In this document: in pieces, positions 3,364 to 19,407 of the stretch
Numbering within the stretch: the stretch's first letter is position 1
How the letters are laid out: each line of letters begins with the position of its first letter
Origin: Streptomyces avermitilis MA-4680 = NBRC 14893
Lineage (GTDB): Bacteria; Actinomycetota; Actinomycetes; Streptomycetales; Streptomycetaceae
Length of the DNA: 64,000 nucleotides
Assembly: GCF_000009765.2 (NCBI RefSeq)
Contig: NC_003155.5
Span: forward strand, 5,394,001 to 5,458,000
Reading direction: 5' to 3'
Notes under the pieces: generated by a model
The model's input: only the letters and a program-made list of their open reading frames with translations
The model's database searches: none
What the model was told of the DNA's origin: nothing
Translations under genes and position numbers: made by a program

Positions 3364-4177
3364 GCCAGGCGGCCAGGGCGACCGTCAGGCCGAGGGCCAG
3401 CAGCAGCCAGCAGACCGTGCGCAGCGTCTCGGTCAGGGCGTCGTAGATCGCGCCCGCGGCCGGGCGGGAGGCGCCGGGCGGCAGATCCGCGAGGGTCAGC
3501 CGGCGGCCCACGGCGACCGCGCCGGCGAGCGACGCTGCGCCGAGGGCCGTACCCAGGCCGGTCGCCAGCACCGCGCGGCGCCGGCACACCGCCGCGAGGA
3601 TGCCCGTGAGGGCGAACACGACCGTGGCGACAGGCAGCCAGAATCCGGCGATCTCGAGCACGTGGAACCCCTTCCGGAGCGTGGCCAGGTCCCGGGTCCC
3701 GAGCAGGGTGATCTCGGTGTGTTCGACCGGGATGCGGTCCGCGAACGGCACCTGGTCCTCGACGAGCTGACGCTTCATCCGCTCCGTGGCGGGCGCGAGG
3801 TCGATGGTGACCGGGCGGTCGCCGTCGCTGCGCAGGGCGCGCATCACGGCGTCGTACGCGGCGAGGTTGGCGGTTCCCCAGGCGGTGCGGAAGGCCTCGG
3901 TGCCGGTGAACGAGCGCACCGCGTCGTGCACGAAGGAGCGCACCGGCTCCTGGAGCGGCGAACCCACGTGCACCTCCCGCATGATGCCGTCGGTGACGGC
4001 CGCGGCGACCGCCTCCCGCACCTCGGCGTCGGCGGCGAGCGGCGCGGTCGTCGCCTCGTACCGGGCGCTGTCCTCGATGCCGTACGTCGCCCAGGCCGCG
4101 AGCGCGCCGAGCGGCGCGAGCAGGCAGGCGAGGCCGATGAACACGGCCGACAGGGCGCTCCGTACGCGTAGAGACAC
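3278..4177 (-). CDS. Integral membrane protein, function unknown
   Basis: A 299-residue protein with a hydrophobic N-terminal segment (residues ~8-29), then a ~150-residue extracytoplasmic region. Three more membrane spans follow, around residues 180-205, 208-228 and 255-280. The tail is rich in Arg, Ala and Pro. The long outer loop after one N-terminal span is typical of conserved actinobacterial membrane proteins with no assigned function. Codon bias is clear throughout. It converges with and overlaps the end of the MocR-type gene, so the two may interfere. No catalytic motif is recognisable. Confidence 0.8.
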   Translation of the reverse strand: MSLRVRSALSAVFIGLACLLAPLGALAAWATYGIEDSARYEATTAPLAADAEVREAVAAAVTDGIMREVHVGSPLQEPVRSFVHDAVRSFTGTEAFRTAWGTANLAAYDAVMRALRSDGDRPVTIDLAPATERMKRQLVEDQVPFADRIPVEHTEITLLGTRDLATLRKGFHVLEIAGFWLPVATVVFALTGILAAVCRRRAVLATGLGTALGAASLAGAVAVGRRLTLADLPPGASRPAAGAIYDALTETLRTVCWLLLALGLTVALAAWLTGVYTRRRRASAAPAPVRAAEPTRARA

Positions 4178-5099: not shown

Positions 5100-5203
5100 G
5101 GGAGCACTCCTCTCTCCTCGCCCCCGCACTCCAGGGCACACCCCGCGGTGACGGCTGGCAAGTCGGGATGCGGCACGGACCGGCCCGTGTTTCGCTGGGC
5201 CCC

Positions 5204-6463
5204 ATGAACAGGCGGTCCGGCGCAGGTCAGCAGCGCCGTGCCCGGCGTTCTTCGCTCGATCCGCGGCCCCCCGGCGCCGGGGGGCCGGACGCCGTTCAGC
5301 GGCAGAAGCTGCTGCGCGTGCGCGGCCGCAGCGTCGCCTGGATCCCACCGGTGGCCCTGCTCGCCGCGATCGCCGCGTTCGACTGGAACACCACGGGCGA
5401 GTTCCGGGTCATCTCCTGGGTCGTGCTCGTGCCCGGTATCGCCGCCGCGATCTGCGGCGTGTGGGGCACGCTGGTGATCGCCGCGCTCGCGCTCGGCACG
5501 TTCGTGCTCGAGGACAACTCCTGGCCGCACCAGTACCAGACCGGACTGCCCGACTTCATCCTCGTCGTCGCGGGCGGGGCGCTGGCCGTCCTCGCCTGCG
5601 TGGTGCGCGTCCGCGGCGAGCAGCGGATGCTGCACATGCGGGACATCGCCGAGACCACCCGCAGCACCGTGCTGCGCCCGCTGCCGCCCGGCTGGGGCGA
5701 CCTCGAACACGCCGCCGTCTATCTCGCCGCCGACAGCGAGGCCCGCGTCGGCGGCGACTTCTACGACATCCAGCCCGGCCCGCAGGGCACGCGGCTCCTC
5801 CTCGGCGACGTCCAGGGCAAGGGGCTCGGCGCGGTGGCCGCGGCGGCGGCACTCCTCGGCACCTTCCGCGAGTCGGCGTACCACGAGCCCGACCTCGGCA
5901 CGGTCGCCGCCCACCTGGAGGTACGGATGGCGCGGCACGTCCGGTACTGCGCGGCGGTCGGCCGGGACAATGACGCCGACGCCGACCGTTTCGCCACGGT
6001 GGTGCTGGTCGGCTTCCCGGAGACGGACCCCTCGTACGTGGAGGTCGTCAACTTCGGGCACGAGCCGCCGTTGGTGGTCACCCCCGAAGGGGTACGGTCC
6101 CTGCCGGCCGGCGAAGGCCTCCCCGCGGGCTTCGGCGAGCTGGCCCACGGGGCGACACCGCCCACGCTCCGGGTGCCGCTCACTCCCGGTGAGACGCTGC
6201 TGCTGGTCACGGACGGGGTGACGGAGGCGCGCGACGCGGCCGGGGAGTTCTACCCGCTGCGGGAACGGGTGGCCGGCGCGGTCGCCGCCGACCGGCGCGT
6301 CGCCGAGCCCGCGCGCCTGGTGCGCTACGTCCGTGACGGCACGCTGCGCCACTGCGGCGGCCGCCTCGACGACGACACGACGATCTTCGCGGTACGCCGG
6401 CACCGCCGCGAGGAACGTTCCGCACGCAGCCCCTTCACGTCCGTTCCGCCCGGCGCCCCCTGA
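5204..6463 (+). CDS. Membrane PP2C-type (SpoIIE/RsbU-like) protein phosphatase
   Basis: A 419-residue protein: a basic N-terminus, four hydrophobic segments (~residues 43-135), then a SpoIIE-type phosphatase domain. Metal-binding motifs are visible: GGDFYD at 183-188, GDVQGKGLGA at 201-210, NFGHEPPL, LVTDGVTEARD and the C-terminal RLDDDTTIFAV. Such enzymes dephosphorylate Ser/Thr, classically on anti-anti-sigma factors. No STAS or anti-sigma gene is adjacent, so the target is unknown. The chosen ATG at 5204 has no clear ribosome-binding site; an in-frame ATG at 5168 is possible. An OmpR/kinase pair follows 75 bp downstream. Confidence 0.92.
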   Translation: MNRRSGAGQQRRARRSSLDPRPPGAGGPDAVQRQKLLRVRGRSVAWIPPVALLAAIAAFDWNTTGEFRVISWVVLVPGIAAAICGVWGTLVIAALALGTFVLEDNSWPHQYQTGLPDFILVVAGGALAVLACVVRVRGEQRMLHMRDIAETTRSTVLRPLPPGWGDLEHAAVYLAADSEARVGGDFYDIQPGPQGTRLLLGDVQGKGLGAVAAAAALLGTFRESAYHEPDLGTVAAHLEVRMARHVRYCAAVGRDNDADADRFATVVLVGFPETDPSYVEVVNFGHEPPLVVTPEGVRSLPAGEGLPAGFGELAHGATPPTLRVPLTPGETLLLVTDGVTEARDAAGEFYPLRERVAGAVAADRRVAEPARLVRYVRDGTLRHCGGRLDDDTTIFAVRRHRREERSARSPFTSVPPGAP

Positions 6464-14113: not shown

Positions 14114-15736
14114 TCACGGGAGCCCGGCGGGGGGTACTTCGAGGGTCTTGGACGAGACGCTCTCGGTGAGTCCGGCGGCCAGGTACGGGGCGGTGTCGGG
14201 GAGGTGCGCCGGGCGGGCCGGGCGCTTTCCCGCGGCCGGATATTCCGCGAAAAGGGCCACCGTGACGCTCAGGCGGCCGCCGGAGGTGGTCTGCCAGAGG
14301 GTCCGCGCGCCGGGGCCCGAGCCCGCGCCGCCGGAGAAGTGGCCCACGGCGCCGGCGGCGCCGGTGTACTTCGTCAGCATCTGTGCCTGCACCGACGCCA
14401 CGACCCGCCGCGTGTCCGGGCGCGCCGTGTAGCTCGTCCGGCCGCCACGCGTGATCTTCGCGACCGTGTACGGCTTCGCGTAGGTGCCGCCCGCCACCGT
14501 CGCCGCGTACGCGGAGGCCAGCCGGAGCGGGGACGGCGCGGCCGTACGGGAGAGGGCGGCGAGGGGGCCGGTGAACCGGACGGCCCTGAACGGGTCGAGG
14601 GCCGTACCCGCCTCCACCGCTCCGTTCACGGCGTCGTTGAACGGCTGACGGGCGTAGTCCGCGCCCCCGTACAGCACCCGCACCGCGCCGTCCCCCGGGA
14701 CCAGCGCCACGACGGCCGTGTGCAGCCGGGTGCCCTTGCGGGCCGCCGGGGCGCCGCGCACCTGCTCCGCCGTCGCCTGCTGCGCCGCCAGGTCGAACGT
14801 CGTGCGGACCGTGTAGCCGCCGCGGGCCAGCTGGTCCGCGGTGATGCCGAGCCGGTCGGCGGCCTCCGTCGCGGCCGCGTCGATCAGATACTGGCGCTGG
14901 CCGTCCGTGTTCCCCGGCGGATAGAACCGGAAGGCCGGGAACGCGGCGGCGAGACGCTCCTTCGCCGTGATCGTGCCCGACGTCCGCATGCCGTCCAGGA
15001 CCCACGACCAGCGCTTCTCCAGCGTCGCCGTCACCTTCGCGTCCGCGCCGGCGCGCTCGTAGTACGACGGCAGGTTGATGATCGCCGCGAGCGCCGCGCC
15101 CTGGGCGAGCGTCAGGTCCTTGGCGTCCACCCCGAAGTAGTTGCGCGCCGCCGACTCGATGCCTGCCGCGCCCCGGCCGAAGTACACGGTGTTGAGGTAG
15201 CCCTCCAGGATCGAGTCCTTGGAGCGGGTGCGGTCCAGTTTGACCGCGATCAGCGCCTCGCGGGCCTTGCGGGAGAGCGACTGCTCCGGGCTGAGCAGGG
15301 CGTTCTTCACATACTGCTGGGTGATCGTCGAGCCGCCCTGGCGCGCGCCGCCGCTCAGCGTGGACACCGCCGCGCGCACGACGGCGCTGGGTGAGATCCC
15401 CGAGTCGGTGCGAAAGGAGCGGTTCTCCGCGGCGATCACCGCGTCCTGGACATGGCGGGGGACCTCGGAGAGCGGGACGTCCTGGCGGTCCACCGGGCCG
15501 CGCCGGCCCAGGTACTCGCCGTCCGCGTCCAGGAAGACCGTGCTCTGGCTGACCGTCTCGGGGTGCGGCTCGGGGACGCCCGTCAGCAGGTACGCCACCA
15601 CGACCGCACCGCACAGCAGCATGATCAGCGCGAGCACCGCCGCGAGTGCGCGGCGGATCCAGCGCTCCCGGCGGCGACGGGTGCGGACGCGGCGGGGGAT
15701 CCGACGCCGTCGGCCCTGCTCCTCGGGGGCGCTCAT
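14114..15736 (-). CDS. Penicillin-binding protein with intact glycosyltransferase and degenerate transpeptidase domain
   Basis: A 540-residue protein with one membrane anchor (residues ~30-52). The glycosyltransferase-51 domain is complete: catalytic Glu in AAENRSF (~104), GGSTITQQYVKN (~134-145) and LEGYLNTVYFGRGA. The transpeptidase domain is short and worn. Where GSxxKP is expected it reads EAGTALDPF (~375-383), so both Ser and Lys are changed, and where KTG is expected it reads WQTTSGG (~481). No SxN motif was found. It is therefore probably a glycan-polymerising enzyme without cross-linking activity. It is the last gene of an overlapping operon with an L,D-transpeptidase, a sigma factor and an anti-sigma-like protein. 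The ATG overlaps the upstream stop by 4 bases. Confidence 0.88.
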   Translation of the reverse strand: MSAPEEQGRRRRIPRRVRTRRRRERWIRRALAAVLALIMLLCGAVVVAYLLTGVPEPHPETVSQSTVFLDADGEYLGRRGPVDRQDVPLSEVPRHVQDAVIAAENRSFRTDSGISPSAVVRAAVSTLSGGARQGGSTITQQYVKNALLSPEQSLSRKAREALIAVKLDRTRSKDSILEGYLNTVYFGRGAAGIESAARNYFGVDAKDLTLAQGAALAAIINLPSYYERAGADAKVTATLEKRWSWVLDGMRTSGTITAKERLAAAFPAFRFYPPGNTDGQRQYLIDAAATEAADRLGITADQLARGGYTVRTTFDLAAQQATAEQVRGAPAARKGTRLHTAVVALVPGDGAVRVLYGGADYARQPFNDAVNGAVEAGTALDPFRAVRFTGPLAALSRTAAPSPLRLASAYAATVAGGTYAKPYTVAKITRGGRTSYTARPDTRRVVASVQAQMLTKYTGAAGAVGHFSGGAGSGPGARTLWQTTSGGRLSVTVALFAEYPAAGKRPARPAHLPDTAPYLAAGLTESVSSKTLEVPPAGLP

Positions 15737-16407
15737 GATCCGTCTCCGCTCCGCGCGAGAACGGCGCCTCGCGCGTCGTACATCGTGACCCGTACCGTCG
15801 CGAACAGCCGCTTCCCGGCGGACTTCGGCTCCGGCGCGATCGCGTACCAGACGCTCCAGCCGGGACTGCCCGCCAGTGTGAGCAGCGTGCCCGCCGTCGT
15901 GCCGGACGGTGTCTCCACCTCGGCGCGGGCCGCCTGTCCCGTGCCCCGGTAGGTACCGGAGAGGAGGAAGCGGTCGTGCACCTCCTCCAGCCGGAGGGTG
16001 ACGGCGGGGCCGCCCGCTCCGCGGCTCTCCTCGGGCAGGGACACCCCGGAGCCCGCCGGCGTCGACCAGTGCTCCCCGTCCTTCGCCAGCCACAACTCCG
16101 CCCCGGGCAGCGGCTGTACGCGCTCGCCGGCCGCGACCACCCGCACGGCCTTGCCCGATACGGAGGCGGAGGGCGCCGTCGCGCCGTCGGGCGCGGTCGG
16201 GGTCAGGCGCCAGGAGACGTAGGCGAGCGGGGCGAGCACCAGCAGACAGCCGGTCACCAGCGCCGTCGTACGGCGTCTGCGCCGCCGGGCCCGGCCCTCC
16301 CGCTCGATCTCCGCCAGCGGGACGGGGGACGGCATGACGTCGTCCGCCATGCGGGCGAACGCCTCGCGCAGCTCGGCGTGGTGCGGGGGCGGGACCGTAC
16401 GGCTCAT
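15733..16407 (-). CDS. Membrane anti-sigma-like protein
   Basis: A 224-residue protein: a short cytosolic part (ELREAFARMADDVMPSPVPL) and an Arg-rich run, then one membrane span (TTALVTGCLLVLAPLAYVSW). The rest is a ~150-residue outer domain with alternating strands (VTLRLEEVHDRFLLSGTYRG, WSVWYAIAPEPKSAGKRLFA). It sits directly after the ECF sigma gene with a 4-base overlap and before the PBP gene, again overlapping. That position argues for a cognate anti-sigma factor. No zinc-binding anti-sigma motif is visible, so the assignment is mainly by context. Confidence 0.75.
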   Translation of the reverse strand: MSRTVPPPHHAELREAFARMADDVMPSPVPLAEIEREGRARRRRRRTTALVTGCLLVLAPLAYVSWRLTPTAPDGATAPSASVSGKAVRVVAAGERVQPLPGAELWLAKDGEHWSTPAGSGVSLPEESRGAGGPAVTLRLEEVHDRFLLSGTYRGTGQAARAEVETPSGTTAGTLLTLAGSPGWSVWYAIAPEPKSAGKRLFATVRVTMYDARGAVLARSGDGS

Positions 16408-16841
16408 CGGGGAACTCCGGAGAGGGGAAGGGCGCTGAGGGCCGCGAGGCCGCGCCGGGCGTACGACTTGACCGTGCCGACCGAGCAGCCCAGCGTCTCG
16501 GCGATCTCCGCCTCGGCCAGGCCCTCCCCGTGGCGCAGCACCAGCACCACCCGCTGCCGGGCGGGCAGCGCGGCCAGCGCCCGGGCGAGCGGGGCCGGTG
16601 CGGGCGCGGGGCGTCTGCGCCTCAGATGGGCGCGCACCAGCGTCCGCCGTACGTGGAAGTCGGCGTCGTCGCGCGGGATGCGCCGGCGGCGTGCGTACGC
16701 GTCGGCCAGCGCGGTCCGCGCCAGGTCCGCCGCCTCGTGCGGGTCGCCGGTGAGGAGGTGGGCGGTGCGGACCAGACGCGGCCAGGCGTGGGCGGCGTAC
16801 GCGGCGAAGTCCTCGCGTGGGGAGGGGGGTTGCGGGGTCAC
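16404..16841 (-). CDS. ECF sigma factor (SigE-family-like, short)
   Basis: A 145-residue protein. Region 2 begins at FAAYAAHAWPRLVRTAHLLT and includes DPHEAADLARTALADAYARR. Region 4 is ALPARQRVVLVLRHGEGLAE to GCSVGTVKSYARRGLAAL, a typical ECF -35 recognition helix. It overlaps the L,D-transpeptidase stop upstream and the anti-sigma-like gene downstream by 4 bases each, so all four genes are likely co-translated. The operon suggests it responds to cell-wall stress. Confidence 0.92.
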   Translation of the reverse strand: MTPQPPSPREDFAAYAAHAWPRLVRTAHLLTGDPHEAADLARTALADAYARRRRIPRDDADFHVRRTLVRAHLRRRRPAPAPAPLARALAALPARQRVVLVLRHGEGLAEAEIAETLGCSVGTVKSYARRGLAALSALPLSGVPR

Positions 16842-17662
16842 GTCAGTGCGCTGCCTGCCCGCCAGTCGTCCCAGTCCACGTTCCGGTCGCCGTAGCCGTT
16901 GCCCGGCGCGACCGTGTCCTTGGAACCGACGACCTTCACCACGTCACCGGGGATCACCTCGTCGTAGAAGCGCTTCGCCGTGCCGTCCGTGGCGAGGCCG
17001 ACACAGCCGTGGGTGACGTTCTGGCGGCCCGCGTACGTATGGGCCTTGGGATTCTGGTGGAGGTACGTGCCCGAGGCGGTGAGGTGGACGGCGTAGGAGT
17101 AGTAGTCCGCGTACGCGTCGCCGTAGCCGACGGTCCGCGCGTCCATGAAGACGCTGGTCGCCTTGTCGGAGACGACCATCGTGCCGTTCCAGGTGTCCAT
17201 GCCGGGGGCGCCCGCGCTGATCGGGACCGTGCGGGTCGCCCCGTCCTTCACGACCTTCATGGTGTGGGTGCGCACGTCTACCGTGGCGACGAGCGAGCGG
17301 CCGACGGTGAAGTGCCGGGTGATGCCCGCGCCGGCCCGGACGGTGACCGTCAACTGCCGTTCGGTACGGGCGCGTTCGGCCGCCGCTACCGGGTGGTCGA
17401 AGGTCACGGATACCGGCATGCCGACGCCCACGGTCCGGCCGTCGGCGATGTTGATGCGCGCGCCGCTCAGCCTCTCCAGAGCCTTGGGGGCGGTCTTGTG
17501 CGTGACCGCGGAGGCCGGCCGCCGGGCCGTGTCCGCCCGGGTGTCCGCACTCTGCGCCTGCGCGCCCGGCGAGCAGCCCGCGAGCCCGAGCGCGCACACG
17601 GCGGCGGCCCCCGGGGCGGGCGCGAGACGGCCGGTCCTGCTTCTGTCGGCTCTGGTGGTCAT
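16838..17662 (-). CDS. Lipoprotein L,D-transpeptidase (YkuD family)
   Basis: A 274-residue protein with a lipobox (LGLAGCS, Cys ~30), an Ig-like domain (~70-125, VTFDHPVAAAERARTERQL) and a YkuD catalytic domain. The active-site motif is complete: His in TYLHQNP (~202) and NVTHGCVGL with His ~218 and Cys ~220. It should make 3-3 cross-links in peptidoglycan outside the membrane. The ATG at 17662 is preceded by GGGGGGAAC. It is the first gene of the operon L,D-transpeptidase, ECF sigma, anti-sigma-like, PBP. It is divergent from a second ECF sigma gene. Confidence 0.95.
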   Translation of the reverse strand: MTTRADRSRTGRLAPAPGAAAVCALGLAGCSPGAQAQSADTRADTARRPASAVTHKTAPKALERLSGARINIADGRTVGVGMPVSVTFDHPVAAAERARTERQLTVTVRAGAGITRHFTVGRSLVATVDVRTHTMKVVKDGATRTVPISAGAPGMDTWNGTMVVSDKATSVFMDARTVGYGDAYADYYSYAVHLTASGTYLHQNPKAHTYAGRQNVTHGCVGLATDGTAKRFYDEVIPGDVVKVVGSKDTVAPGNGYGDRNVDWDDWRAGSALT

Positions 17663-17789
17663 CGTTGTTCCCCCCGCGGTGTGTTTCGATGTGCGGCGTA
17701 CGGGACCTGTACGCACGGCGAAGTCGGCCGGGTTGCAGGGGAATGCGGAAAACTCGTGGCGGGGGCCTGACGGAGGGCGTGGCAGGGGC

Positions 17790-18317
17790 ATGACGGAGGG
17801 CCGGGCGGGGGGCATGACCGAGGAAGAGTTCGACGCGTTCTACGCCACCGCGTTCCCTCGCCTGACCGGCCAGCTCTACGCCTTCACCGGGGACCACGGC
17901 GAGGCGCAGGACGTCGTGCAGGAGGCGTTCGTCCGGGCCTGGGACCGGCGCCGGGAGTTCCTCGCGGACGGGGCGCCCGAGGCGTGGATACGGACCGTGG
18001 CGATGCGGCTCGCGGTGAGCCGCTGGCGCCGGGCGCGACGCTGGCTGGAACTGGTGCGCCGTAATCCGCCGCCGGAGCACACACCCGGGCCGGGCCCCGA
18101 GCGCGCCCAACTGGTGGCGGCGCTGCGCAAACTGCCCGAGGTGCAGCGGATGGCGGTGGTGCTGCACCATCTGTGCGACCTGAGTGTCGAGCAGGTAGCC
18201 TCCGAAACCGGTGCTCCCGTGGGCACGGTCAAGGCCCGGTTGTCCCGGGGCCGGGCCGCACTGGCGCGGGAACTGGCCACCGGCGACGGGGAGAGGGAGG
18301 ACGACCGTGTCCGATGA
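17790..18317 (+). CDS. ECF sigma factor (SigE family)
   Basis: A 175-residue protein. Region 2 is FDAFYATAFPRLTGQLYAFT, DHGEAQDVVQEAFVRAWDRR and AWIRTVAMRLAVSRWRR. Region 4 is LPEVQRMAVVLHHLCDLSVE and GAPVGTVKARLSRGRAAL. Start ATG 17790 is chosen; a second ATG at 17814 with a GGGGGG run is equally possible. It overlaps the downstream membrane protein by 11 bases. It is divergent from the L,D-transpeptidase operon with a 127-bp gap. Confidence 0.93.
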   Translation: MTEGRAGGMTEEEFDAFYATAFPRLTGQLYAFTGDHGEAQDVVQEAFVRAWDRRREFLADGAPEAWIRTVAMRLAVSRWRRARRWLELVRRNPPPEHTPGPGPERAQLVAALRKLPEVQRMAVVLHHLCDLSVEQVASETGAPVGTVKARLSRGRAALARELATGDGEREDDRVR

Positions 18318-19092
18318 CCTCACCACGGAGCTGCGCGAGCTGGCCGAGTCCGGCGAGGCCCTGCCGGTCGTGCCGGGGGCGGAGATCCGCCGCCGGGCCG
18401 GAGCGCGCAGGCGCCGCCGTCGTACGAGTGCCGCGGTGGGCGGCGCGGCGGCCGCGCTGACGCTGGGGCTGGCGCTGGTCCTGAACCTCGGTGGTCCGGG
18501 GGCCGAGCGGAAGCCGTCGCCCGCCGGGCGCCCGACGAGTACGCCCAGCACCCAGGAGGCCCCCGTCGCGACCGTCCGGCTCGCCAGCCGGATCCTCAGC
18601 GTCGACGGCCGCACGCTGTTCGTCTCGCCCGGCACCGCCCGGAGGGACACGCCGACCGGGCGGCTGACCGTCGCGGCCAAGTACGAGGTCAAGCTGGTGT
18701 CCGGCGAGGACATCGGCTTCAAGGGAACGTACTCCTACAAGGTTCCCTGGATGGTCGAACTGCGGGCGGACGACGGTACGTCGGTGTACCTCGGAGGCCT
18801 GTCGTCCGATGAGAAGGCACCCGGCAACTACGACACCACCCGCGGCTGGATCGGCCTGCGCGTCGTCGACGCGAAGTGGCTGTACGGGCGGCTGGCCGTC
18901 GGTGACGCCGTGAACATCGACGGCACCGCCTCCCCGGCGGACTCGGCCACGCCGGACCCGGCCGGGGTGGACACGGCCACGACGGAAACGGCCACGGGGG
19001 GCCCGGCCGCGGCGGGGTCGGCCCCGGAGGCATCCGTCCGTATCTCGCCGACCACGGTGACCCCCTCCCCGACGGCACGTAACGGCACGTAG
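18307..19092 (+). CDS. Anti-sigma-like membrane protein with a pseudo-L,D-transpeptidase outer domain
   Basis: A 261-residue protein from GTG 18307, overlapping the sigma gene. The cytosolic part is ~45 residues ([20 protein letters not shown]), followed by an Arg run and one membrane span ([14 protein letters not shown]). The outer domain follows YkuD order: [35 protein letters not shown] and [20 protein letters not shown]. In active enzymes the last block is preceded by SHGC; here it is TTRGW (residues ~177-181), so His and Cys are lost. The upstream His is also replaced (VYLGGLS for the usual YLHG). The tail is Thr/Ala/Pro-rich. It may sense wall structure or L,D-transpeptidase substrates. 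This reading is by eye; a profile search would settle it. Confidence 0.85.
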
Positions 19093-19104: not shown

Positions 19105-19407
19105 GTGCGGATGAGCGTCTCGCCAGCCATGGAAATACTTGGTTTCTTCGTCGTCTTCGCGCTTGTGCTGGCCGGTTTCGCCGGAGTGGAGAGCAAGATC
19201 GGCCGAGCCGACCGCAGAGTCGCCCGCGTGGAGAAGAAGCTCGACCTGATCCTCGACCACCTGGGGATCGACCATGTGGACCCGCGCATGGAGCGGGTCG
19301 ACGCCCTCCTGCGCGACGGCAGGAAGGTCGAGGCGATCAAGACCTACCGCGAACTCACGGGCGCGGGCCTGAAGGAGGCGAAGGAAGCGGTCGAGCGGAT
19401 GGGGTAG
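19105..19407 (+). CDS. Small membrane-anchored protein with L7/L12 C-terminal-like domain
   Basis: A 100-residue protein. It has an N-terminal hydrophobic segment (MEILGFFVVFALVLAGFAGV), a coiled segment (ESKIGRADRRVARVEKKLDL), and an end, GRKVEAIKTYRELTGAGLKE then AKEAVERMG, that matches the ribosomal L7/L12 C-terminal fold. The GTG at 19105 has AGGGGA 8 bases upstream; ATGs at 19111 and 19129 are alternatives. Such proteins are frequent in Streptomyces with no known role. Confidence 0.8.
   Translation: MRMSVSPAMEILGFFVVFALVLAGFAGVESKIGRADRRVARVEKKLDLILDHLGIDHVDPRMERVDALLRDGRKVEAIKTYRELTGAGLKEAKEAVERMG

Follow-up and report, generated by a model that had tools for sequence, protein, structure and literature searches.

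The present analysis concerns a window of 64,000 nucleotides (nt), by which we mean the whole stretch of DNA analysed, from Streptomyces avermitilis MA-4680 = NBRC 14893 (contig NC_003155.5, positions 5,394,001 to 5,458,000), and within it a pair of overlapping genes together with the operon that diverges from them. The first gene of the pair encodes SIG, an extracytoplasmic function (ECF) sigma factor; the second encodes ASL, a one-pass membrane protein carrying on its outside a domain that folds like an L,D-transpeptidase (LDT) and lacks the catalytic residues of one. The divergent operon encodes an intact LDT, another sigma/partner pair and a peptidoglycan polymerase whose transpeptidase half is degenerate, and the two sides are here considered as a candidate sensory module and its output.

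The SIG/ASL gene pair

The genes and parts of the pair, in coordinates of the window, are as follows.

17814–18317, forward strand: SIG, SigE-family ECF sigma factor (TIGR02983, 186.2 bits against a cut-off of 141.55; start 17814 chosen by conservation)
18307–19092, forward strand: ASL, one-pass membrane protein, its outer domain a dead L,D-transpeptidase of the YkuD type (GTG start, 261 residues)
18307–18426, forward strand: cytosolic segment of ASL, residues 1–40 (helices in the model at 3–14, then from 24 through an RRRRRR stretch)
18427–18489, forward strand: transmembrane segment of ASL, about residues 41–61 (placed by inspection; the RRRRRR before it is inside-positive; low predicted local distance difference test score, pLDDT)
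18568–18921, forward strand: outer domain of ASL, YkuD fold, residues 88–205 (Pfam, profiles, predicted structure)
18793–18795, forward strand: Gly163, replacing the catalytic His (YVH in active LDTs; profile alignment to LdtMt3, column tally)
18847–18849, forward strand: Trp181, replacing the catalytic Cys (SHGC to TRGW; profile alignment to LdtMt3, column tally)

ASL runs from a short N-terminus through an arginine run, the hydrophobic stretch at about 41–61 and a Ser/Pro/Thr linker to the domain at 88–205 and a low-complexity tail. An earlier note, made from the sequence of this stretch alone, had proposed that the outer domain is of the YkuD type, and three lines of evidence bear this out. 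Pfam YkuD (PF03734) matches residues 89–204 with 34 bits (cut-off 23.4, E 5.3e-8). Searched against PDB sequences, a profile of eight ASL orthologues finds L,D-transpeptidases only at E ≤0.002 (LdtMt3, 6d51, E 6e-12; LdtMt2, E 5e-11), and with a profile of 41 relatives all 30 distinct chains at E 0.01 are L,D-transpeptidases, the best at E 1.3e-16. An AlphaFold model of ASL, the only protein whose outer domain was compared in this way, was built from its sequence together with those of seven named Streptomyces orthologues; it matches L,D-transpeptidases in Foldseek at E 3e-8 and aligns structurally to LdtMt1 (VIA-align: 109 residues, 2.4 A, Z 13.2), so that structure prediction, the first of the checks by which the earlier proposal could have been refuted, does return a YkuD fold. 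Ten-residue pLDDT means lie between 71 and 97 within residues 81–160 and 181–210 and drop to 68 (residues 161–170) and 51 (171–180), and the loop ahead of the former Cys is therefore poorly defined in the model. On profiles and prediction together, we regard the YkuD/L,D-transpeptidase fold of the outer domain as confirmed.

The loss of the active site, also read from the sequence by the earlier note, is equally clear in alignment to LdtMt3, where T178-R179-G180-W181 stands in place of SHGC, and Gly163 in place of the catalytic His upstream of it. This genome yielded 13 YkuD domains in all, and the 12 others keep the catalytic Cys. To follow this position among relatives, we drew on 150 Streptomyces genomes, 33 of which match the sensor at E 1e-9; after removal of one ordinary LDT (G069) and of one sensor with a DUF4232 outer domain (G078, locus L181, discussed below), 31 of the 150 genomes have a YkuD-type sensor. 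Added to these are three named records and seven loci of a second family of the order (f3), which brings the set to 41 distinct sensors whose outer domain can be aligned. In all 'distinct' numbers the second copies L043, L044, L047 and L048 (of L148, L147, L149 and L153) are counted once and the near-copies L046 and L166 are both counted, and L015, L016, L017 and L020 are set aside as ordinary LDTs.

At the aligned catalytic place, a Cys occurs in none of the 41 distinct relatives (L181 left out). The Streptomyces sensors (n=34) have W (23), V (4), L (4), A (2) or P (1) there, and those of f3 (n=7) have D (3), E (2), G (1) or H (1). In contrast, 73 of 73 loci that match the YkuD part alone (L049–L121, among 80 loci) keep [ST][HW]GC. 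The place of the catalytic His is taken by G, A, V, L or Y in the column tally of the Streptomyces relatives; in f3 it falls in a gap of the alignment and is read as Tyr by comparing YxAPW with the LHAAPW of active enzymes. A sequencing slip or a decaying gene is excluded as the source of the dead site, since the Cys is absent from its place in 41/41 relatives and all are open through the domain. Elsewhere in the domain, A189 is kept in 42/42 alignment rows, Y193 in 38 and W191 in 37, which speaks for the fold and not for a function, because active LDTs share the motif DAxW(L/F)Y.

The pairing with a sigma gene is just as constant. By the description of TIGR02983, SIG belongs to the same sigma family as S. 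coelicolor sigma-E. In the window the start of ASL overlaps the last 11 nt of SIG, and the pairing with an ECF sigma gene that the earlier note pointed out recurs among relatives: in 44/44 loci scanned (loci picked as long sensor matches), the gene immediately upstream of that for the sensor is a SIG orthologue, and in 42/42 distinct loci a start codon of the sensor gene falls inside the 3' end of the sigma gene. Within ASL, conservation is highest in residues 1–40, whose mean pairwise identity is 63% in 31 Streptomyces rows (four divergent rows, L154, L181, L182 and L238, are left out of the identity means); they are modelled as helices at 3–14 and from 24, the block having pLDDT 60–73. ASL is thus a candidate anti-sigma factor. 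With about 40 residues, its cytosolic part is too short for a class I anti-sigma domain; at best it would fit a short class II-like domain of the CnrY type. CnrY itself has a role in metal signalling. Some other SigE-family sigma genes of this genome also precede genes for proteins that span the membrane once, have a basic cytosolic part and carry unrelated outer domains; the cytosolic part is short in L186 and L190 and about 115 residues long in L187.

Directly 3' of ASL, a gene at 19105–19407 (forward strand) encodes a small protein that begins with hydrophobic residues and carries a domain like the C-terminal one of ribosomal L7/L12 (PF00542, 30.8 bits); L12-type matches are also found downstream of the sensor in L042 and L043.

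The divergent operon and its promoter

On the opposite strand, four genes follow one another with 4-nt overlaps, preceded by a promoter-like element.

17708–17737, reverse strand: ECF-type element TGCAACC-N17-CGTACA directed into the operon (-10 about 45 nt from the LDT start)
16838–17662, reverse strand: LDT, intact L,D-transpeptidase, first gene of the operon, a lipoprotein by inspection (YkuD 55 bits, Big_10 34.5 bits)
16404–16841, reverse strand: SIG2, another SigE-like ECF sigma factor, in which region 2 is weak (TIGR02983 139.5 bits, Sigma70_r2 13.1 bits; 4-nt overlap with LDT)
15733–16407, reverse strand: ASL2, second one-pass partner, with a beta-rich outer domain (4-nt overlap with SIG2)
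14114–15736, reverse strand: peptidoglycan polymerase of the GT51 type, its transpeptidase domain degenerate and shortened (Transgly 195.2 bits; 4-nt overlap with ASL2)

The divergent operon does begin, as the earlier note had it, with an intact LDT, whose active-site motifs read YLHQNP...NVTHGC; in 12 of 12 distinct cases the neighbouring LDTs have YxHxNP and THGC. With an active LDT divergent to the sensor in these 12 distinct loci, one may ask whether ASL is a non-catalytic scaffold or allosteric partner of that enzyme, merely co-transcribed with SIG, the more so as inactive paralogues regulating active enzymes are known (PMC5201418, in the part available). However, SIG stands beside ASL in every locus scanned and LDT in only part of them, the f3 pair stands with no LDT found nearby, and the short basic cytosolic segment is strongly conserved, all of which makes this explanation very improbable.

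The remaining genes of the operon go beyond the earlier note, and they comprise a second sigma/partner pair and a GT51 protein with a dead transpeptidase half. SIG2 falls just below the TIGR02983 cut-off (139.5 vs 141.55 bits). For ASL2 no Pfam family exceeds its cut-off, and a fold search gave nothing at E ≤0.001 (best E 0.015); the outer domain looks immunoglobulin (Ig)-like and is not assigned to a family. SIG2 and ASL2 form one chain (sigma, transmembrane segment, outer domain) in 16 distinct relatives (L046, L149, L150, L151, L153, L163, L164, L166, L171, L174–L177, L179, L180 and L235) and are separate in 5, the window included (16 vs 5, n=21 judged, excluding L168 and L170). Therefore, such sigma/partner pairs can act as one unit.

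As for the polymerase, its GT51 domain retains ENRSF, and its transpeptidase half reaches 15.2 bits, below the cut-off of 22.1. In the orthologues the SxxK, SxN and KTG motifs are gone in 22/22 sequences (19 distinct), or in 20/20 distinct ones with the addition of L235: the place of SxxK holds T-A-L-D or alike, some 100 residues expected to hold SxN are missing, and KTG is lost. By contrast, an ordinary penicillin-binding protein (PBP) in L157 keeps its transpeptidase motifs, and SxxK and KTG are kept in 4 of the 6 GT51 proteins of this genome. The transpeptidase half of the polymerase is the second dead transpeptidase of the locus. A separate GT51/PBP of the same genome (L227, 8601536, forward strand) has SAFL at the SxxK place and KAG at that of KTG, and is of ordinary length.

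The polymerase tracks the sensor in its distribution. At E 1e-120 it is found in 19 of the 150 Streptomyces genomes, 18 of which also have the YkuD-type sensor; that is, in 18/31 sensor-bearing genomes vs 1/119 others, a comparison that takes both searches to cover the same 150 genomes and whose one exception lies on a 4.7-kb contig.

The element between the two halves is rare in this genome. TGCAACC-N16-18-CGTACA occurs exactly at only three places in 9.1 Mb, one of them at 17708–17737; of the other two, L232 lies inside a coding sequence and L234 about 20 nt before a HesB/ErpA-like gene (named by eye). Among Streptomyces loci (L235 and L238 excluded), GCAACC-N15-19-CGTAC lies between SIG and the operon, facing the operon, in 26 of 33; in 1.2 Mb of locus sequence, counting both strands, it occurs only 27 times. 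Of the 27 loci in whose neighbourhood LDT, SIG2/ASL2 or GT51 turned up, 25 have it, the two without it (L149 and L182) seeming one-base misses in sequence, and it is absent in 5/5 loci where none of these was found (one of them, L167, near a contig end). Locus L181, with another divergent gene, also has it. In the f3 loci, a GCAACC -35 lies forward upstream of SIG itself, with CGT[CT] as -10, in 7/7. Because the element tracks the presence of the operon, lies beside SIG and stands upstream of SIG in f3, SIG is the first candidate reader of the operon promoter.

Outer domains with a counterpart in the operon

Locus L181 (G078) deserves separate treatment. It has orthologous SIG, cytosolic and transmembrane parts, and a DUF4232 outer domain in place of YkuD; downstream of the same promoter, its divergent gene codes for a DUF4232 protein that begins like a lipoprotein. 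The DUF4232 domains of the two proteins are identical in 143 of 144 residues, and the DNA holds an inverted repeat of 458 nt at 99% (3530–3987 and 5123–5580). This suggests that the sensor domain was re-written from the divergent lipoprotein-like gene. Thus in one genome, a point which the earlier note did not touch, the outer domain of the sensor mirrors the product of the divergent gene. A related arrangement concerns ASL2, of whose outer domain a free copy with a signal-peptide-like start lies within the operon in L042, L148, L162, L168, L169 and L170. The copy in L042 is as follows.

L042, 4579–5127, reverse strand: ASL2 outer domain as a free copy, its start signal-peptide-like

Together with the YkuD domain of ASL and the neighbouring LDT, this makes three cases in which a sensor outer domain shares its fold with a product of the adjacent operon.

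These cases lend themselves to an explanation by feedback, in which what the outer domain detects is the product of the divergent operon, or the two compete for one ligand, and ASL would gauge the amount or occupancy of LDT rather than the wall. The shared YkuD fold, the near-identical DUF4232 pair with its inverted repeat and the free ASL2 copies in six loci all speak for it. Against it, L181 is a single case, and recent copying of the neighbouring LDT gene does not explain ASL. In a tree of 75 rows and 128 columns with few resolved forks, the Streptomyces sensors form one set at 97% Shimodaira–Hasegawa-like approximate likelihood ratio test (SH-aLRT) support and the neighbouring LDTs a separate set at 99%, with L181 as a long lone branch; descent of ASL by recent copying of that gene is therefore rejected. 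Nor do mirrored neighbours hold as a rule for SigE-family pairs: in seven regions of this genome, none of the four comparable sigma neighbours (one of which, in L241, is lipoprotein-like rather than a one-pass partner) was mirrored within the stretch examined. On balance we consider the feedback explanation rather unlikely.

A candidate wall-state sensor and its known counterparts

Taken as a whole, the locus is best explained, in our tentative estimate at not quite an even chance, as a pseudo-LDT sensor of the anti-sigma type, SIG/ASL, set over a penicillin-blind wall cassette. The ground for it is comparison, which establishes the fold, the catalytic loss, the conserved sigma partnership, the promoter position, the operon content and the dead transpeptidase half. 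ASL would be the membrane partner of SIG, probably a short class II-like anti-sigma factor, with a retired L,D-transpeptidase as its sensor. Its cytosolic helices would hold SIG at the membrane, while the dead YkuD domain, incapable of turnover, would meet the state of the wall outside. The likeliest contact may be the peptidoglycan stem or nascent strand used by the active LDT, or LDT itself, and the trigger may be a loss of the usual D,D-cross-linking or a build-up of LDT donor stems. Upon such a change in the wall, SIG would be freed and would read the GCAACC-N16/17-CGTAC promoter of the divergent operon. The output would be an active L,D-transpeptidase, presumably making 3-3 cross-links, a GT51 polymerase with a dead penicillin-binding half, and the second sigma/sensor pair; the net product may thus be a wall-building cassette without a beta-lactam-sensitive D,D-transpeptidase. 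L,D-transpeptidases make 3-3 cross-links and bypass PBPs (PMC6767563, in the part available), so that an LDT encoded next to a polymerase devoid of its D,D-transpeptidase half suggests a wall cassette indifferent to penicillin.

Drug occupancy, which the earlier note had offered as one possible signal, is disfavoured. Carbapenems acylate the catalytic Cys of LDTs, and LDT adduct structures are among the structural matches of the ASL model; since the Cys that such drugs acylate is gone in ASL, with a bulky Trp in its place in 23/34 Streptomyces sensors, occupancy by a drug is an unlikely input. The other signal named there, a wall-peptide substrate, may still be what the domain reads. What stands of that note is the dead LDT domain, the partnership with a sigma gene and the divergent LDT.

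The proposal can be carried further, to a wall-emergency module of dead enzymes in which the pseudo-LDT reads the substrate, the sigma factor turns on the penicillin-blind cassette, and sensor and effector share a ligand. A shared ligand is suggested because the sensor domain has the fold of the effector and, as the inverted copy in L181 suggests, can be re-written from the effector gene; the membrane tether of the second sigma factor, a feature of 16 among the 21 relatives judged, would be part of the same module. We hold this fuller version to be possible but doubtful.

Several observations weigh against the pseudo-LDT sensor. To begin with, no anti-sigma family was found in ASL in Pfam at E up to 10, and NCBIfam at E up to 1 gave two matches only, far under their cut-offs: the CU044_5270 family (19 bits against 100, residues 26–92) and the SCO2400 family (14.7 bits against 55). 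A profile comparison between the cytosolic parts of ASL and ASL2 was not significant (hhalign probability 4.8), and for this reason the fused SIG2-ASL2 pair does not prove the mechanism of ASL. As regards the output, LDT, SIG2, ASL2 and a module-type GT51 were not found near the sensor in 7 f3 and 5 Streptomyces loci, among which L155 and L167 are on contigs that end early; because of these 12 sensor loci, the cassette is not the sole target. Moreover, S. coelicolor sigma-E targets have GCAACC or GGAAC and mostly a CGTCT -10 (PMC6767563, Table 1, among the parts available), and because the operon promoter resembles them, other SigE-family factors may read it. On the side of the sensor, the DUF4232 swap in L181 means that a YkuD domain is not obligatory, one relative (L173) has a Cys one residue ahead of the catalytic place, and a Trp where the Cys used to be might occupy the former pocket.

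Two further such observations bear on a distinct explanation, namely that the YkuD domain is a relic, a weakly constrained spacer, and that signalling goes through the cytosolic/transmembrane part or through proteolysis of the stalk. The mean pairwise identity of the YkuD domain is 37% vs 63% for the cytosolic part, and while 26 of 41 relatives have a YkuD match standing alone at E 0.01, 15 have none of their own, as relaxed constraint would also give; the varied residues at the catalytic places and the long, variable linker and tail fit the same picture. A Trp in the old site may mean either a filled pocket with another surface in use, or a domain under weak constraint. Nevertheless, the domain is alignable and open in 41/41 relatives, the profile of all 41 recognises L,D-transpeptidases better than that of eight orthologues (E 1.3e-16 vs 6e-12), and Trp is favoured at the Cys place; the constancy of A189, Y193 and W191 counts on the same side, though for the fold alone. 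We therefore judge a relic to be unlikely, and return to the pseudo-LDT sensor as the preferred explanation.

If that explanation is true, an enzyme fold has been turned into a wall receptor, and Streptomyces, a harmless genus of the soil, would possess a genetically encoded route to beta-lactam-indifferent wall synthesis. Most tested sigma-E target promoters stay vancomycin-inducible without sigma-E, from which further stress-sensing ECF factors were inferred (PMC6767563, in the part available). For the sensing of wall stress by Streptomyces ECF factors, the module is a concrete candidate with a testable input, the non-catalytic LDT fold, and a testable output, an LDT and a GT51 enzyme without a working penicillin target. 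No paper on a YkuD-bearing anti-sigma factor was found in the searches made, which covered open-access literature only. An ECF sigma factor with a membrane partner, a fused sigma-transmembrane factor, a PBP as sensor and pseudoenzymes are each known, and it is their combination here that is new.

Among the known systems, the mycobacterial YkuD enzymes LdtMt1, LdtMt2 and LdtMt3 (PF03734) are closest to ASL in the outer domain, with the same fold over residues 83–210 (Z about 12–13) and with the TPTG strand and the IxLxxxDAxWxY motif kept. ASL differs from them in that the catalytic Cys and His are lost and no Ig-like accessory domains are seen, and in that it has an N-terminal cytosolic segment and a transmembrane anchor and is encoded with a sigma factor. 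In its short cytosolic part it may be likened to class II anti-sigma factors of the CnrY type, with fewer than 50 cytosolic residues and, in the model of ASL, two helices (PMC7406223, in excerpt); this is a likeness without a sequence match.

In gene content, SigP/RsiP/PbpP of B. thuringiensis is comparable, as it likewise brings together an ECF sigma factor, a membrane partner and a wall-synthesis protein, and there, too, the state of the wall or a drug controls the ECF factor (PMC8092216, in excerpt). PbpP, a PBP known to act as a beta-lactam sensor, is a separate protein that, according to the same excerpt, needs its active-site Ser, whereas in ASL the enzyme fold lies within the sigma partner itself and has no catalytic residue. 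Fused sigma-transmembrane factors are known in Actinobacteria (PMC8999054, in excerpt); in the ECF48/52/53 groups, e.g., SCO4117, sigma factor and outer sensor lie on one chain, as in SIG2-ASL2 of 16 relatives, but these carry a zinc-finger domain, while ASL2 has a different outer domain, with no family over cut-off. Finally, the S. coelicolor sigma-E regulon resembles the module in the GCAACC-like -35 of some targets and in having LDTs and PBPs among those targets, and differs from it in that sigma-E, as the available part of PMC6767563 describes it, has no anti-sigma factor and is controlled by CseBC, and in that its -10 is mostly CGTCT-like, vs CGTACA here.

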